Origin: a virus
DNA length: 39,529 nucleotides
Virus record (IMG/VR): IMGVR_UViG_3300042894_000876
Location: 1 to 39,529 of that record
Direction: 5' to 3' (one strand)
The notes under the pieces are model-generated. The model was not told the DNA's origin. It did no database searches and saw nothing but the letters and a program-made list of their open reading frames with translations. The stretch's first letter is position 1, and each line of letters opens with the position of its first letter. Shown here piece after piece: positions 2,029-38,510 of the stretch. The position numbers were made by a program, and so were the translations under genes.

Positions 2029-2423
2029 TGTATGACAATGACCGAGAGCGAGTGGGTCACGATGCTACAGACTTTGCAGCATTTGGGCTTTCAGATCCTT
2101 TCCGTGGATACGCAAAGCGAAGTGCTAACAATACGTCCGATACCAACACGTTTGTAACTGATGTGTGGTCTACCTTAGATGCAGCAGGTAACCTGCTCAT
2201 CAAGAAGCATAAGGACTACGGTCCAACTAACATAAGCCTGTCACCTGGTGGGCCTCTCAATGGTCTGCGTGTACGTATGCACGACAAGACAGCACGCATC
2301 AACCACTTGATTGATAGCGGTGCTACACCTGAGAACGAGTCCTTGCGTGATTCCTTTATTGATCTGCTTAACTACAGTGCTATTGCACTGATGGTGCTAG
2401 ATGGTAAGTGGCCTCGTGACTGA
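2028..2423 (+). CDS. DUF1599-like (nucleotide modification associated domain 1) protein, 131 aa
   Basis: A 50-residue leader is followed by LLIKKHKDYGP, an HDKTARINHLI helix and a C-terminal FIDLLNYSAIAL. This is the layout of the DUF1599/NMAD1 family, short helical proteins linked to phage nucleotide metabolism or base modification. ATG 2028 overlaps the primase stop (TGATG) and follows GGAGG; a GTG one codon earlier is possible. No nucleotide hypermodification enzyme is recognisable elsewhere, so the substrate is unknown. A MazG-like pyrophosphohydrolase is the main alternative. Confidence 0.7.
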   Translation: MYDNDRERVGHDATDFAAFGLSDPFRGYAKRSANNTSDTNTFVTDVWSTLDAAGNLLIKKHKDYGPTNISLSPGGPLNGLRVRMHDKTARINHLIDSGATPENESLRDSFIDLLNYSAIALMVLDGKWPRD

Positions 2424-3048
2424 TCCACATCCAATACTTAATGACCTTGTACCTAGCGTGGTGACCATTGTCCACCGTCGCTATCGTAAGTATGTAGATC
2501 GTGCTGACCTAGTGCAAGAAGCATACGCTTGGTTGATGACACGTGTGTCCTACTTCAATGACTTGCTAGGTGAAGAGGATGATGCAAGAAGGCTTATCAA
2601 TCAGAAGCGTATAGCATTTCAGATGCGCCGTGCATTAGAACGCTATGCTCGCAAGGAGAAGGCGGTCAGGTCTGGGTACCAGACCAATGATGAGTCCTTC
2701 TATGATGTCACTACTATTGCACGTTTGTTGCCATACATTATTGCAAGCATAGTCAACGACACCGCTATTGAACAAGCACAAAACCTTATCAATGATGGCA
2801 CACCACGCAAGCCAGCAGCCCCTGCTGAAGGTGGCAACCTATTAGCCACACTCATTGACATCAAGAAGTCTTATGAGTTGTTGGATGAGGATGAGAAGAA
2901 CATCTTGCGTCTTAGATACCACGAGAACTACACACTGCAACAGTTAAGCGAAGCAACAGAGTGTGCTATCTCTACTGCAGATCGTAGATGTACCAATGCA
3001 CTGCGTAAGATACTTAACTTTATGGGAGGGGAGTCGCCTTATCAATGA
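2401..3048 (+). CDS. RNA polymerase sigma factor-like protein, about 215 aa
   Basis: The N-terminal part contains VDRADLVQEAYAWL, as in sigma region 2. The C-terminal part has a region-4 helix-turn-helix: LRLRYHENYTLQQLSEATECAIS followed by a basic helix (broken here: LRLRYHENY, then TLQQLSEAT). It probably directs host RNA polymerase to phage promoters. The start is uncertain: ATG 2401 overlaps the preceding gene by 23 bases, while GTG 2416 overlaps by 8; neither has a strong ribosome-binding site. The protein is shorter than a housekeeping sigma and lies in the early operon. Confidence 0.75.
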   Translation: MVSGLVTDPHPILNDLVPSVVTIVHRRYRKYVDRADLVQEAYAWLMTRVSYFNDLLGEEDDARRLINQKRIAFQMRRALERYARKEKAVRSGYQTNDESFYDVTTIARLLPYIIASIVNDTAIEQAQNLINDGTPRKPAAPAEGGNLLATLIDIKKSYELLDEDEKNILRLRYHENYTLQQLSEATECAISTADRRCTNALRKILNFMGGESPYQ

Positions 3049-6404: not shown

Positions 6405-6622
6405 TATTTGCCCGCCTTGTCTTCTTGTTCCTGCAACCATTGAAGAAGAGTTGAAACAGATGCCACCAATTCAAGGGCAACCTGTCCAAAGTCTGATGAT
6501 TCTGAAAAGTCTGTGATCGTCTTATCTGAAAGCATTTTGTCTGCGGTCTGCATCAAAGTGCGGGCATAAGAAAAGTCATTTCTGACCTGTGTCTTTGTTG
6601 TTGAATTGTTAGTGTTTTTCAC
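6404..6622 (-). CDS. Hypothetical helical protein, GTG start, 72 aa (first gene of leftward operon)
   Basis: GTG 6622 follows GAAGGGA. The N-terminus is Asn/Thr-rich and polar; the rest is helical (FSYARTLMQTADKML, then ALELVASVSTLLQWL). It is the promoter-proximal gene of the - strand operon, 51 bases downstream of the candidate -10 at 6673-6678. Family unknown. First genes of early phage operons are often host-takeover factors, but nothing specific is seen. Confidence 0.6.
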   Translation of the reverse strand: MKNTNNSTTKTQVRNDFSYARTLMQTADKMLSDKTITDFSESSDFGQVALELVASVSTLLQWLQEQEDKAGK

Positions 6623-6644
6623 TGTTTTTTTCCCTTCGCTTTTA

Positions 6645-6665
6645 TCAAAGGCCTTCGCTCTTTGA
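6645..6665. promoter_or_regulatory. Inverted repeat in leader of leftward operon
   Basis: TCAAAG (6645-6650) and CTTTGA (6660-6665) form a palindrome with a 9-base spacer, between the candidate -10 element and the first leftward gene. The hexamer TTCGCT is also repeated 20 bases apart here. It could be an operator or a 5'-leader hairpin. Confidence 0.4.
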
Positions 6666-6672
6666 TGATCCT

Positions 6673-6702
6673 ATTTTACTCATACTTTTGTGTGGGTGTC
6701 TA
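6673..6702 (-). promoter_or_regulatory. Candidate sigma-70-type promoter for leftward operon
   Basis: Read on the - strand: TAGACA (6702-6697), an 18-base spacer, then TAAAAT (6678-6673). Both hexamers are close to consensus, and the position upstream of the first - strand gene is right. This is the best promoter match I see in the control region. Confidence 0.6.
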
Positions 6703-6767
6703 CCCCATTTGAGAAGATTCTTTTTGTGTCGTGTTGTGTCTCTTTGTCGACAATTCCAGGGGATGCG

Positions 6768-6830
6768 TAAGTTACCGAAGAGGTGCGGTCAGTAACTTAG
6801 TGGGCGATCTTGTTACTGATGAGTAACTTA
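6768..6830. repeat. GTAACTTA motif cluster with palindrome
   Basis: GTAACTTA occurs inverted at 6768-6775 and direct at 6792-6799 and 6823-6830. The last copy is part of a palindrome, GTTACT at 6812-6817 and AGTAAC at 6822-6827 with a 4-base spacer. Three copies in 63 bases suggest protein-binding sites, such as operators or origin elements. Confidence 0.6.
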
Positions 6831-6927
6831 ATGGATGGGCAGATCAAGGAAGGAGATGTTAAAAAGTAAGGGTTAGGGAATCGATAAGGGTGCCGAAGGG
6901 ACAGCAAGCCAATCCCTTTCGGATTGA

Positions 6928-6958
6928 ATAAAGATGCAAGGCGATGCATAAAGATGCA
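6928..6958 (+). repeat. Iteron-like direct repeats
   Basis: ATAAAGATGCA occurs at 6928-6938 and 6948-6958, exactly 20 bases apart, with a third GATGCA between them at 6943-6948. A perfect CAATCC/GGATTG hairpin (6910-6926) lies directly upstream. The arrangement resembles small iteron arrays or operator pairs; the binding protein is unknown. Confidence 0.5.
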
Positions 6959-7067
6959 GACAAAAGGCAGACAGATCACAGCAAGACAGGACAGGGGGAG
7001 GGGGGTGGGTGCTGTCTTCCCACGCCAGAAAACGGGACCCCCGTGTGTTAAGCGGGGCCAGTGTATG

Positions 7068-7073
7068 TATAAT
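7068..7073 (+). promoter_or_regulatory. Candidate -10 box (TATAAT), rightward
   Basis: A perfect TATAAT lies about 370 bases before terminase. No good -35 hexamer is seen at 16-18 bases (the region reads GTGTTA), so a promoter is plausible but unproven. A long structured leader would follow it. Confidence 0.4.
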
Positions 7074-7213
7074 ACTCCCCAACAAAAAATATACGCTAAA
7101 GTGAAATGTCCTAATTTGTACACATATTTCTAGTGACCTTAGTCACAAACCGTAAATAAAATCTACCGTAGACGGGAAATCGGTTATTTTTTCTGCCTTA
7201 TATATAGTAGGGA

Positions 7214-7383
7214 GTAAAACGAACCAGTACTAGTTTTACGACCGATACTCGCTACGTTGGCACTACGCGAGTCCCCCTAGGACGAGCACCAACTTACCCC
7301 TCGGTCGCTGTGGCTCCCTCGGGCGCTAAGCCCGAACTGGTTACTGCTTTTAGTGGGGATAGTTCTATCTCCAGTATAGAGAT
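7214..7383 (+). promoter_or_regulatory. Structured leader with nested inverted repeats upstream of terminase
   Basis: Pairings visible by eye: GTAAAAC 7214-7220 with GTTTTAC 7233-7239; AACCAGT 7222-7228 with ACTGGTT 7336-7342, enclosing ACTCGC/GCGAGT (about 7247-7272) and TCGGGC/GCCCGA (7319-7335); a near-perfect GGGGATAG/CTATCTCC palindrome at 7355-7372; and ATCTC/GAGAT overlapping it up to 7383. Some are mutually exclusive, as expected for a switching leader RNA, but they could equally be operators. Confidence 0.45.
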
Positions 7384-7441
7384 CCTTCCCCTAGTATAAA
7401 AATTTTTTACGCGCTCATCGCGCTTTATTAGAGGAGACTAC

Positions 7442-9301
7442 GTGGCAGAGAAGTCCAGTGACATCGCCAAACGTCTGATCCTTTCAGGTGTAGCAGAAGG
7501 TTTAACCATCGAGGCAGCCACGGCTGCATCTGGTAAATCCTATAAAACCTACGAGTACTATCGCAGGACCGATAAGGTCTTTGCAGACAAGATGGACCGA
7601 ACAAGGCTAGGTTTGAAAGACAAGAACTTTGCCTCCTCCGATGTCCACGACTTAACCTTTGCAGAGTTTCGCCAAAGGTACTTACACTCTCGGACCTTTC
7701 CACACCAGCAGAACCTCATCGATGTAATCGAGGGTAGGGAACCTGGTTGGCTACATCCCAGTATGAAGTATGAAAAGGGTCTGGCTAATAACCGTATCCT
7801 TTTGAATATCCCGCCCAACCACGCCAAGTCTATGACGGTGACCGTCGACTACGTTACCTGGCAGGTTTGTCAGAACCCTAATTTCCGTGTTCTGATAGTT
7901 TCACAAACGCAGCAATTGGCTGCTGACTTTCTCTACGCCATCAAGCAACGCCTGACACATCCTAACTATGAAGCACTGCAACAGGCTTACGCTGCTGGCG
8001 TAGGGTTTAACTCTAAGACCGCCTCTTGGCAGGCAACCCGCGTTACCTTCGGTGATGAACTCAGAGAATCCTCAGAAAAGGATCCTAACATTGAGGCCGT
8101 TGGTATCGGTGGTCAGATCTACGGTAAGCGTGCAGATATGATTATCGTAGATGACGCGGTGACATTAAAGAACGCAAACGAGTTTGAGAAGCAGATCCGC
8201 TGGTTAACCCAGGATGTGCGCTCCCGTTTGAACCCTACTGGTAAATTAATTATCGTAGGTACCCGCGTTACTGCAGTTGACCTATACCGTGAACTGCGCT
8301 CCGAGGACCGCTACCCTGGTGGCTTGGTACCTTGGACATATCTGGCAATGCCAGCATTGCTCAAGACAGATGAGGATCCTGATAAGTGGGAAACTCTCTG
8401 GCCTGCAAGTGATGCTCCCTTTGATGGGCAGACAGAAGCAGATTTGAATGAGGATGGACTATACCCACGCTGGAATGGTCGTAACCTTTACAATGAACGA
8501 CAAGCAATGGATGCATCTACCTGGGCGTTGGTTTACCAGCAACAGGATATATCAGATGATGCAATCTTTGACCCAGTATGTGTGCGAGGTTCTATAGATG
8601 GAATGCGTAAAGCAGGTCGTTTGGTTCCTGGTCACCCAGGCCATCCGCGTGACCTTAATGGCTTTTCAATTATTTGTGGTCTTGATCCCGCTATGGTTGG
8701 TGATACAGCCGCCATTTGCTACGCTGTTGATCGGACTAGCCATAAACGCTATATCGTTGATGCTATTAAGATTACTCGTCCAACGCCTGCTCAAATTCGC
8801 CAACTGATATTTGACTGGACTTCCCTGTATCAACCTGGCGAGTGGATTGTAGAAAAGAATGCGTTCCAGTCTTTCCTTACTCAAGACGAGGGCATCAGGC
8901 AAAACCTGGCCTCACGAGGAGTGCTACTGCGGGAACACCATACTGGAACCAACAAGTGGGACTCAGGCTTTGGTGTTGCATCAATGTCAACTTTGTTCGG
9001 CACCAAGCAACACGACGGTAAGCACCACCGCGACAATCTTATGCATCTTCCGTCAGATCAAACAGAAAATGTTAAGGCGCTCATCGAGCAACTGATTACG
9101 TGGTCGCCTACTACTAAGGGTAAGACCGATATGGTGATGGCACTTTGGTTCTGTGAGATCCGCGCACGTGAGATGCTCAACCAAGGTATGCACAAGACCC
9201 ACCACTTAAAAAATCCATTCCTGTCTCGTTACGAACAGGGCAAACGAACAGTTATCAACATAGATGAACTGCTCGCAGAAAAAGATCGTACATTCATCTA
9301 A
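7442..9301 (+). CDS. terL: Terminase large subunit with N-terminal HTH, 619 aa
   Basis: This is the ATPase and nuclease that packages DNA through the portal. Residues 8-58 form a helix-turn-helix segment resembling a small-subunit DNA-binding domain. The ATPase has a Walker A-like IPPNHAKSM (123-131), a Walker B DMIIVDD (232-238) and LIIVGTRVT. The RNase H-like nuclease has Asp415 (GLDPAMVGDTA), Glu471 (WIVEKNAF) and Asp563 (KTDMVMA). It starts with GTG behind GAGGAG. It opens the late operon; no separate small terminase gene is seen next to it, so the fused HTH may take that role. Confidence 0.97.
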   Translation: MAEKSSDIAKRLILSGVAEGLTIEAATAASGKSYKTYEYYRRTDKVFADKMDRTRLGLKDKNFASSDVHDLTFAEFRQRYLHSRTFPHQQNLIDVIEGREPGWLHPSMKYEKGLANNRILLNIPPNHAKSMTVTVDYVTWQVCQNPNFRVLIVSQTQQLAADFLYAIKQRLTHPNYEALQQAYAAGVGFNSKTASWQATRVTFGDELRESSEKDPNIEAVGIGGQIYGKRADMIIVDDAVTLKNANEFEKQIRWLTQDVRSRLNPTGKLIIVGTRVTAVDLYRELRSEDRYPGGLVPWTYLAMPALLKTDEDPDKWETLWPASDAPFDGQTEADLNEDGLYPRWNGRNLYNERQAMDASTWALVYQQQDISDDAIFDPVCVRGSIDGMRKAGRLVPGHPGHPRDLNGFSIICGLDPAMVGDTAAICYAVDRTSHKRYIVDAIKITRPTPAQIRQLIFDWTSLYQPGEWIVEKNAFQSFLTQDEGIRQNLASRGVLLREHHTGTNKWDSGFGVASMSTLFGTKQHDGKHHRDNLMHLPSDQTENVKALIEQLITWSPTTKGKTDMVMALWFCEIRAREMLNQGMHKTHHLKNPFLSRYEQGKRTVINIDELLAEKDRTFI

Positions 9302-35475: not shown

Positions 35476-35531
35476 CCCACTAGCGCGAGGCAGGAAGAGG
35501 CTCACCCCGAAAGGGGTGGGCTTCTTTTTTT
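35462..35531 (+). terminator. Rho-independent terminator of late operon
   Basis: AAGAGGCTCACCCC (35495-35508), a GAAA loop and GGGGTGGGCTTCTT (35513-35526) form a 14-bp stem with two G-U pairs, followed by a T-run to 35531. A smaller hairpin, GTGGGT/ACCCAC (35462-35480), overlaps the holin stop codon just before. The T-run is only on the + strand side. Confidence 0.92.
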
Positions 35532-35542
35532 ATGCCATAAAA

Positions 35543-35893
35543 CTAATTGATACCTGAGTTGCTGTCCCCTGACAGGTGGGTCTTGAGCCTGTGGCAGTTA
35601 GCACAGAGGGTTTGCAGGTTGGCTGGGTCATTGTTAAAGCGGTCGCCGTCTATGTGGTCTACGTCCAACTGGCTGATGTGTACTGGCTTGAAGTCACAGT
35701 GTTCGCAGTAATCTTTTTTGTATACCGTATACGGGTAGATAGACTTATTATGGTTTCTTATATAGACAGCCCTGCACTTATACCTACCAGTGATTGGCTT
35801 CTTTTTGTCCCGTATCTTTATCTTAGTGGGACCGCAAACTGAGCACAGTGCTGTGCGATTTTCTTCATCAATCTCAGATAGTTTGTGATTCAT
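35543..35893 (-). CDS. HNH endonuclease, 116 aa
   Basis: DYCEHC, then LDVDHIDGDRFNNDPANLQTLC and ANCHRLKTH: the beta-beta-alpha-metal HNH site (Asp-His, Asn, His) with zinc-binding Cys pairs. A second Cys pair lies near the N-terminus (CSVC). No clear ribosome-binding site; the start overlaps the upstream gene. Transcribed opposite to the late operon. It could be a free-standing homing endonuclease or assist packaging. Confidence 0.9.
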   Translation of the reverse strand: MNHKLSEIDEENRTALCSVCGPTKIKIRDKKKPITGRYKCRAVYIRNHNKSIYPYTVYKKDYCEHCDFKPVHISQLDVDHIDGDRFNNDPANLQTLCANCHRLKTHLSGDSNSGIN

Positions 35894-36128
35894 CTTTGTC
35901 TACTGGACAAGGAACAGTGACTATGTTTCCACAGTTAACACAGGTAGCATCAAGGAAATACCAGACCAGTTCGTAGTCTTCAAAGGATGCCATTACAGAA
36001 AAGACTTGTGAGCCACAGGGACAGACGTGTACTGGACCCAGACCTCGTAGGTCAGTGCCAAATTTATCTGGTAGTTTGGACCTGAATTTCGGCAGCCTTG
36101 GTAGACGGAGCCGCACAGTTATTACCAT
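35874..36128 (-). CDS. Zinc-ribbon protein, 84 aa
   Basis: ATG 36128 is chosen for AAAGGGG nine bases upstream; an alternative start lies at 36173. A basic N-terminus (RLRLPRLPKFRSKLP) is followed by CPCG, strands (FSVMASFEDYELVWYFL) and CVNCGN: a two-knuckle zinc ribbon. It overlaps the HNH gene by 20 bases and may work with it or bind nucleic acid. Confidence 0.72.
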   Translation of the reverse strand: MVITVRLRLPRLPKFRSKLPDKFGTDLRGLGPVHVCPCGSQVFSVMASFEDYELVWYFLDATCVNCGNIVTVPCPVDKDESQTI

Positions 36129-36134
36129 ACCATC

Positions 36135-36151
36135 GTGCCCCTTTGGGGCAC
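36135..36151. other. GTGCCCC/GGGGCAC palindrome
   Basis: Perfect 7-bp inverted repeat with a 3-base TTT spacer at the divergent boundary between the zinc-ribbon gene (-) and the Ntn hydrolase (+), overlapping the former's ribosome-binding region. Either an operator or an RNA hairpin controlling translation. Confidence 0.5.
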
Positions 36152-36197
36152 CCTTTGGTTTTATTCGCCTCACGGCTCATATTGTAGCCAGTAGTAG

Positions 36198-36213
36198 CGT
36201 TGCTAACGCAACG
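36198..36213. promoter_or_regulatory. Operator-like palindrome at -35 position
   Basis: CGTTGC (36198-36203), TAAC, GCAACG (36208-36213): perfect 6-bp arms. It lies where a -35 element for the TACAAT box would sit and could bind a regulator of the Ntn hydrolase gene. Confidence 0.5.
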
Positions 36214-36226
36214 ACACGCCGATCAC

Positions 36227-36242
36227 TGATACAATTCCAGTA
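36227..36242 (+). promoter_or_regulatory. Extended -10 promoter giving a leaderless transcript
   Basis: TGATACAAT (TG at 36227-36228, TACAAT 36230-36235) is an extended -10 element. Expected initiation about 7 bases downstream falls on or next to A36242, the first base of the ATG. No ribosome-binding site is present. Leaderless mRNAs are frequent in actinobacteria. Confidence 0.65.
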
Positions 36243-36799
36243 TGACAACAATCGCAGCGATAGAAGGAATTGACTACGCAGTTCTAGTAGCAGATTCACA
36301 GATCACAGAAGACAATCTCGTGACTCTTGCAACCAGTACACCTAAGATCGTTGAGGTTGGCAAGTACCTAGTAGGTATCTCAGGCGACACCAGGCCAGGT
36401 GACATCCTCGCCTACAACTGGAAGCCACCGCTCTACAAGGGTGAGAACCCAGCACAGTTTATGGGTAAGAAGGTTATACCCAGTATCAACCAGGCATTTG
36501 CCGATAACAACTACGACTACAACAAGGTGGACAAAGATGGTGGCTTCGATTATCTCATTGCTTTTAACGGCAACATCTTTCGGATTGCTTGTGATCTCTC
36601 TTTTTTCCAAGCAAATCACGGAGCGTATGGCATTGGTAGTGGGGGTCAACTTGCTCTTGGCTACCTGTATTCAATTGTCAAGCCTGATATGGACTTAGCC
36701 TTTGCAAAGAGACACGCCCGTAGAGCCGTAGAGATTGCGTCGGTCCTTGACTCCAATACTGGTAAGCCCATACAGTTAGTAGTCCAGGAAAGGATGTAG
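36242..36799 (+). CDS. Proteasome/HslV-like Ntn-hydrolase, 185 aa
   Basis: After removal of Met the chain starts Thr1-Thr2-Ile, with Asp17 in VADSQI and Lys34 in PKI: the same Thr1/Asp17/Lys33 arrangement as proteasome beta subunits and HslV. YLVGISGD and AYGIGSGGQLALGYL match the internal beta strand and GSG loop of the fold. The late part (FAKRHARRAVEIASVLD) is a typical C-terminal helix. Phage homologues have not been assigned a role to my knowledge; protease, peptidase or scaffold processing are all possible. Transcript appears leaderless. Confidence 0.85.
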   Translation: MTTIAAIEGIDYAVLVADSQITEDNLVTLATSTPKIVEVGKYLVGISGDTRPGDILAYNWKPPLYKGENPAQFMGKKVIPSINQAFADNNYDYNKVDKDGGFDYLIAFNGNIFRIACDLSFFQANHGAYGIGSGGQLALGYLYSIVKPDMDLAFAKRHARRAVEIASVLDSNTGKPIQLVVQERM

Positions 36800-38240: not shown

Positions 38241-38510
38241 ATGCGGGAACCTCGCGAGTACGAGAACCCGTTATGTGCAGAGATAGGCGGTGACTTCTGG
38301 TTCCCTGACAAAGACAAGGACTCAGTAAGTTACATTGAAAGTCAGTATGCAAAGTCAATCTGTAAACGTTGTACTCATAGAACTGAATGTGCTGAGTGGG
38401 GAATTCACAAGGAGCAGTTCGGTATATGGGGTGGTCTTGCACCACGTGAACGTCTAGCAGTAAGAAGACAACGCAGAATAAATCTTGGAGGGGATGAGGA
38501 AGTTGCTTGA
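38241..38510 (+). CDS. WhiB-family transcription factor, 89 aa
   Basis: Four Cys at 12, 41, 44 and 50 (C-x28-C-x2-C-x5-C) bind a [4Fe-4S] cluster; FGIWGGL (60-66) is the Wbl G[I/V]WGG turn, followed by a basic C-terminal segment (RERLAVRRQRR) for DNA contact. WhiB proteins bind host sigma-A region 4 and tune transcription. Phage copies such as TM4 WhiB can repress host whiB2 and cause superinfection exclusion. It signals an actinobacterial host. Confidence 0.95.
   Translation: MREPREYENPLCAEIGGDFWFPDKDKDSVSYIESQYAKSICKRCTHRTECAEWGIHKEQFGIWGGLAPRERLAVRRQRRINLGGDEEVA

Follow-up and report, generated by a model that had tools for sequence, protein, structure and literature searches.

The non-coding gap at positions 6623-7441 of the 39,529-base viral record analyzed here (the whole stretch, hereafter termed the window) is probably, as judged from sequence comparison, a hub that combines terminal and regulatory functions in a freshwater podovirus, a grading that applies to the overall description and not to each mechanism proposed within it. 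Alignment with relatives showed four sequence-defined modules in a fixed order. In the working model, a leftward promoter with its operators would be followed by a hypervariable cassette, at whose border motifs terminase would cut and within which replication would start; a host protein of the CRP/GlxR family would then activate a near-invariant rightward promoter, and the nascent leader transcript would fold on leaving RNA polymerase and act in cis. The folded leader would make elongation processive through an operon of ∼35 kb, in the manner of the put RNA of phage HK022. The original prediction, which took the gap for a control region with possible origin, packaging, and operator functions, was supported in these respects; the GC-skew criterion that it proposed was not decisive, and it missed the best-kept element of the gap, namely the leader RNA at 7210-7363 together with its fixed CRP-type site and promoter.

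Genome setting and relatives

The gap (∼820 bp) divides a leftward small-gene operon, extending from 6622 to 3431, from the main rightward operon, whose genes run mostly from 7442 round to 3370. The first gene of the rightward operon, at 7442-9301 (+), encodes the large terminase subunit TerL (phrog_38, E = 4e-66). Other genes identified in the window encode a portal, a major head protein, a collagen-like tail fiber, and a glycosyltransferase, together with a DnaB-like helicase, a primase, an exonuclease, and a sigma-like factor. The predicted division between two operons therefore holds, but the rightward operon is not confined to late genes, given that it continues from the structural genes through to the helicase, primase, and sigma-like factor. 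The gap is also the longest in the genome, as had been claimed, the next candidate (35476-36241) being largely filled by a leftward 116-amino acid ORF. This ORF (35543-35893, -), within the rightward operon, resembles by eye an HNH endonuclease and is adjoined by a strong terminator-like hairpin at ∼35488-35531. An HslV/proteasome-like peptidase, unusual for a phage operon, is encoded at 36242-36799 (PF00227, 3e-11). No tRNA genes were found in the window. The 127-base repeat present at both ends of the window looks like the overlap of a circular assembly and is compatible with the collapse of a terminal repeat as well as with circular permutation.

The closest annotated TerL relatives belong to the “Ca. 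Planktophila” phages E7 and F5 (46% identity; OX376640/OX376641), which agree in size and host strain with isolates described previously (PMC10202952), and to the Streptomyces podophages of cluster BF (Beephvirinae: Immanuel3, Zeigle, and Stella; 43% identity), in which TerL likewise lies at or near the left end. The phage is a podovirus whose host is probably actinobacterial. The bacterial genomes searched contained neither a match to the RNA pattern nor a TerL relative from which the host could be assigned directly, and blastn of the gap against GenBank phages returned no match. Relatives were drawn from IMG/VR, in which at least 80 loci were gathered via TerL and further loci via DNA patterns. 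With at least 80 TerL loci and at least 167 RNA loci, such phages are numerous in public metagenomes, and their closest cultured relatives infect “Ca. Planktophila,” an abundant freshwater actinobacterium. Alignment of the gap across relatives revealed strongly conserved islands amid otherwise fast-changing sequence. One relative (L048; record G002, 49,744 bases) exceeds a single genome in length and contains TerL twice; it is probably an over-circularized assembly or a joining of two strains.

A conserved structured RNA leads the TerL operon

The structured leader RNA (∼150 nt; 7210-7363, +) starts at the first base after the rightward promoter. It was present in 56 of 56 listed TerL relatives with >800 bp of upstream sequence, once in each and on the TerL strand. 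Among the matches listed in the wider collection, it lay 5' of TerL at all 167 loci, at a distance of 115-724 nt. Given that part of this collection was gathered with CUUACCCCUC as an anchor, the TerL-based count is the unbiased one.

The leader comprises helices P1 (7214-7220/7233-7239), P2 (7248-7252/7267-7271), and P3 (7271-7274/7280-7283), the invariant segment CUUACCCCUC (7293-7302), helices P5 (7303-7318) and P6 (7320-7324/7330-7334), and the segment UUUUAGUGGGGAUAG (7348-7362). The unpaired CUUACCCCUC and a UGUR loop barely vary among relatives, and the helices change in a compensatory manner. In P1, GUAAAAC/GUUUUAC is replaced by GCAAAGC/GCUUUGC, GUAGAC/GUCUAC, or GUAAAAU/AUUUUAC; hairpins 5' of the invariant core take the forms GGCCUC/GAGGCC, GUCC/GGAC, GCUUC/GAAGC, CGCCCC/GGGGCG, and CAUCCC/GGGAUG; and in P5, the outer pair of which is frequently A.C, AG/CU is replaced by GC/GC, GG/CC, or AC/GU. 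In alignment A2, 91.4% of the cells in the named helices were paired as against 85.9% after shuffling (0/500), and 6 double-change pairs were counted as against 2.5 in shuffles (0/500). A sliding control reduced pairing to 23-55%. Compensatory change thus exceeds that of shuffled alignments, as is expected of a structured RNA, with the exception of P4, for which no support was obtained. Covariation was likewise absent for a long-range CCCC/GGGG pairing, the 3' partner of which is missing from some distant relatives. A pseudoknot (GUUGG/CCAAC) fits one subgroup, is not kept in others, and is not claimed.

The stability of single-sequence folds was modest, with a z score of -2.0 for the window and a mean of -1.2 over 41 relatives, and the mean for the opposite strand of these relatives was about equal, such that the strand is not discriminated by this measure. 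RNAalifold returned a poor structure from the mixed alignment, in which the subgroups misalign; therefore, the helices were scored as named pairs and by direct stem extraction.

No match to the window exceeded the gathering threshold in Rfam 15, nothing credible was returned for positions 6600-7500 at E values up to 10, and a literature search for an RNA upstream of terminase found none. The leader RNA is thus previously uncatalogued, in the sense of being absent from Rfam, and, as a conserved RNA at a fixed place behind one promoter, it constitutes a small and directly testable element. No intrinsic terminator (a hairpin with a U run) was found between the RNA and TerL in 74 loci, which argues that the RNA is the leader of the operon. 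By contrast, 0 of 80 members of the E7 clade contain this RNA, and the strongly structured leader that precedes TerL in cluster BF phages has hairpins unrelated in sequence.

In several relatives, the interval from the leader RNA to TerL contains an insertion. In L003, L050, L052, and L053, this is a tRNA gene that resembles, by eye, tRNA-Arg (ACG); another tRNA-like insertion is found in L019, L021, and L028; and an extra ORF of roughly 60 amino acids is present in L040, L044, L047, L051, L054, L057, L061, and L064.

The rightward promoter and its putative activator site

The main rightward promoter, CTGCCTTATATATAGTA at 7193-7209 (+), has a predicted transcription start at ∼7210, and its motif CCTTATATATAGTA is nearly invariant across relatives. 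A comparable box of the TATATA type is found in Streptomyces BF phages, and in the E7/F5 clade the promoter position is similar. The original prediction had also pointed to promoter-like boxes in the gap. Matches to the σ70 consensus (3 observed, 2.0 expected) do not bear this out by number, but conservation among relatives picks out two that look real, the rightward promoter and the leftward promoter described below. The motif of the rightward promoter occurs just once in the window, and the idea of a promoter for a phage RNA polymerase was rejected for this reason. A σ70-like factor is encoded at 2401-3048, toward the distal end of the rightward operon (PF04545, 6e-06, and phrog sigma-factor families), and could be a partner of the conserved TATATATAGTA promoter.

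Upstream of the promoter, AGTGACCTTAGTCACA (7132-7147) departs by one mismatch from TGTGA-N6-TCACA, the consensus for GlxR (PMC7999487). Enrichment of CRP-type sites was not significant in the window taken alone. Across relatives, in roughly 90% of 115 loci, [AT]GTGA-N6-TCACA precedes the promoter by 50 or 66 bp, and the middle of the site is not conserved, as expected for a CRP-family site; cluster BF phages also have one or more TGTGA-N6-TCACA sites. Given that HMM searches revealed no CRP-type gene in the phage, a host protein is implied as the activator, and, with the fixed spacing of the site, activation of the rightward promoter by a CRP/GlxR-family protein of the host is probable.

Possible roles of the leader RNA

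With an activator site, a promoter, a folded leader, and a very long operon following one another in that order, the nascent RNA may modify RNA polymerase in the same way as HK022 put, which acts without protein (PMC9378689). A cis effect on transcription through the ∼35-kb operon is the likeliest single mechanism for the leader, although it is proposed only tentatively, the antitermination role being suggested by position alone. Both RNAs are structured and lie at the 5' end, or close to it, of a long phage transcript. However, put is ∼70 nt in length, with two stem-loops, and serves a coliphage early operon, whereas the RNA described here measures ∼150 nt, has about six hairpins, and shows no sequence relation to put. 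A more speculative proposal still is that it defines a new class of processive antiterminator RNAs that work without protein in actinobacterial phages. Were it true, the unrelated structured leaders at the same place in BF phages would point to a general rule by which the single very long operon of these podophages is read with the help of a leader RNA.

A rather unlikely alternative is that cleavage of the leader releases a stable phage non-coding RNA that acts in trans. Abundant non-coding RNAs are known in actinobacteriophages (PMC5712189), and those of cluster A mycobacteriophages similarly arise from a strong promoter; they are, however, located at the right genome end behind an early promoter, whereas the present RNA leads the TerL operon. 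The conserved unpaired stretches (CUUACCCCUC and UGUR) resemble binding sites, the RNA is retained despite the insertion of genes and tRNAs behind it, and relatives tolerate tRNA genes at that position, all of which would suit a trans-acting species. Against this, the RNA was never found apart from the TerL operon at the 167 listed loci and always lies directly behind the promoter, without a terminator of its own. The proximity of TerL, which is the next gene in most loci, such that the RNA lies within its 5' untranslated region, raises the question of whether the RNA controls TerL translation in cis or tunes terminase levels as an attenuator. This role is improbable given that in some relatives the RNA and TerL are kept apart by a small gene, a tRNA, or as much as ∼570 nt of additional sequence, and that the hairpin and U run expected of a terminator are absent from that interval in 74 loci. 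Least likely of all is that 7210-7363 serves packaging rather than gene expression, either as a pac-like DNA element or as a pRNA-like packaging RNA. Phages of the phi29 type use a packaging RNA, which provides a precedent, and 7210-7363 has the predicted genome end on one side and the terminase gene on the other. It begins, however, immediately behind a promoter, and both the E7 clade and the BF phages keep the border motifs described below without this sequence. Furthermore, TerL is an ordinary large terminase of phrog_38 and not a phi29-type gp16, and the replication genes are of the DnaB-like helicase/primase kind.

Border motifs predict a direct terminal repeat

Two border motifs flank the hypervariable part of the gap. 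The left motif, TGCCGAAGGGACAGCAAGCC (6891-6910, +), has the family form [CT]GCCGNA..AGA|GTCNGCCC and a near-constant position in relatives; it predicts a left genome end at about 6903/6904. The right motif, ACCCCCGTGTGTTAA followed after 22 nt by ACTCCC (7037-7079, +), predicts a right end at about 7073/7074. In most matched loci of the window family, the right border reads ACCCCC.GTTGTTAA with ACTCCC after 21-22 nt. The spacing is 22 nt in matched loci of the E7 clade, part of which has this motif, and 22-23 nt in BF phages.

The comparison with cluster BF gives these motifs a likely function. In BF phages, the right border is ACCCGGGGGTTGTTAA - 22/23 nt - AGTCCC, the direct terminal repeat ends directly before AGTCCC, and the left ends begin GTCCC. 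The window thus has BF-type motifs at both ends of the interval with a fixed spacing to the expected cut. Terminal repeats of 253-265 bp have been reported for BF phages (PMC9753666, PMC13097060). Among the records compared here, repeats of 263, 264, and 275 bp were observed in three, and the fourth, Abafar, has a longer overlap of 396 bp with a different starting base. By contrast, the repeat predicted for the window from its border motifs and the BF repeats is only ∼170 bp (6904-7073). On this basis, there is good reason to consider the border motifs terminase cut sites and the cassette between them a direct terminal repeat, in keeping with the packaging function proposed for the gap. If so, the motifs would predict exact genome ends in uncultured phages.

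In the window family, contig starts are concentrated at 300-375 bp upstream of the RNA core, a few of them falling exactly on the predicted left end, GT[CA]N..CC. Given that no cluster of right ends was observed at the right border, and that hypervariability can break assemblies, this pattern is suggestive only. Near-complete contigs were set aside as proof of ends, two having circular-assembly end repeats at unrelated places and one having no end repeat. The same observations could be accommodated if the motifs marked the edges of a recombination-prone regulatory cassette in a phage that packages by headful, since hypervariability alone could produce the pile-up of contig starts, right ends show none, and the window and several relatives assemble as circles. 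This is a less likely reading than terminase cutting, given that BF phages in which an end has been mapped at that site share the right motif, with ACTCCC/AGTCCC following after 21-23 nt.

An exchangeable cassette with origin-like repeats

Within the predicted repeat, an iteron-like pair of ATAAAGATGCA (6928-6958, +) has copies at 6928 and 6948, exactly 20 bp apart. This pair was part of the original prediction and exceeds chance, 3 of 1000 shuffles having produced a direct repeat of that length with a period of 12-30. Relatives do not preserve the iteron in its exact form, most of the close ones having DnaA boxes instead, and many relatives carry tandem TTATCCACA DnaA boxes at the position of the window's iterons. 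Exact TTATNCACA matches numbered 122 in 115 regions of 510 bp, compared with 43 in 1.04 Mb of the same loci, and DnaA boxes were present in the cassette interval of 51 of the 115 relatives. The window's own gap contains no DnaA box. In L005, a near relative that also lacks one, the 11-mer ATAACTATGCA occurs twice with the same 20-bp period as ATAAAGATGCA in the window; the two copies are thus identical within each genome but not from one genome to the other, which is the behavior of iterons. No recognizable iteron initiator gene was found among the proteins scanned. Other repeats, such as CTAGACCGCAG-like units at ∼13-bp spacing, occur in cassettes without DnaA boxes (L095, L140, L163, and L171), which suggests several alternative types of initiator site among relatives.

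These data are consistent with 6904-7073 being an exchangeable replication-start cassette. The balance of the sequence evidence leans modestly toward an origin served by host DnaA in relatives with TTATCCACA arrays and by 20-bp iterons in the window, and the coincidence of the two in position lends weight to the origin originally proposed. Tandem DnaA boxes and regularly spaced repeats are features of known DnaA-box and iteron origins; the difference is that here both types interchange at one place inside a predicted terminal repeat. Such a swap would be a natural experiment on how a phage changes its replication trigger. By contrast, none of the BF repeats was found to contain an exact TTATCCACA array. 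The main alternative, that DnaA or a phage protein uses the arrays and iterons to control transcription, is possible though less favored: DnaA also regulates promoters, and the repeats are merely ∼100-200 bp upstream of one. Yet 2-5 tandem exact boxes beside an AT-rich stretch, in a phage with a DnaB-like helicase and primase, are the usual arrangement of an origin loaded by DnaA. The cumulative GC skew, proposed as a check, has its minimum at 6438, 185 bp left of the gap; this provides weak support for an origin because skew in this genome tracks gene direction.

Leftward promoter and operator-like dyads

At the left side of the gap, a consensus scan identified the promoter of the small-gene operon (TAGACA-18-TAAAAT; 6673-6702, -). 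It is overlapped by an inverted repeat, GGGTGTCTACCC (6694-6705), which aligns with TACGGTAGACAACCGTA in relatives and is kept as a dyad among close ones. The perfect palindromes noted earlier are present. TTGTCGACAA (6744-6753) is kept in most close relatives and has a counterpart, TTGTCGACAATT, in “Ca. Planktophila” phage E7; GTTACTGATGAGTAAC (6812-6827) is a full dyad, also kept in most close relatives. The three GTAACTTA sites of the original prediction were found at 6768-6775 (-), 6792-6799 (+), and 6823-6830 (+). Three copies of one 8-mer within 70 bp were obtained in 0 of 1000 dinucleotide shuffles of the region, and the genome-wide search that had been suggested yielded a fourth copy, at 38326, the expectation for the whole window being 1.5. 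GTAACTTA corresponds to the better-kept half of a GTTACT-N4-AGTAAC dyad. Its exact form is conserved only in close relatives, being common in the window's subgroup at about equal distance and scattered or absent elsewhere. The GGGTGTCTACCC/TACGGTAGACAACCGTA, TTGTCGACAA, and GTTACT-N4-AGTAAC dyads look like putative operators for a lineage-specific regulator, in line with the operator function assigned to the gap.
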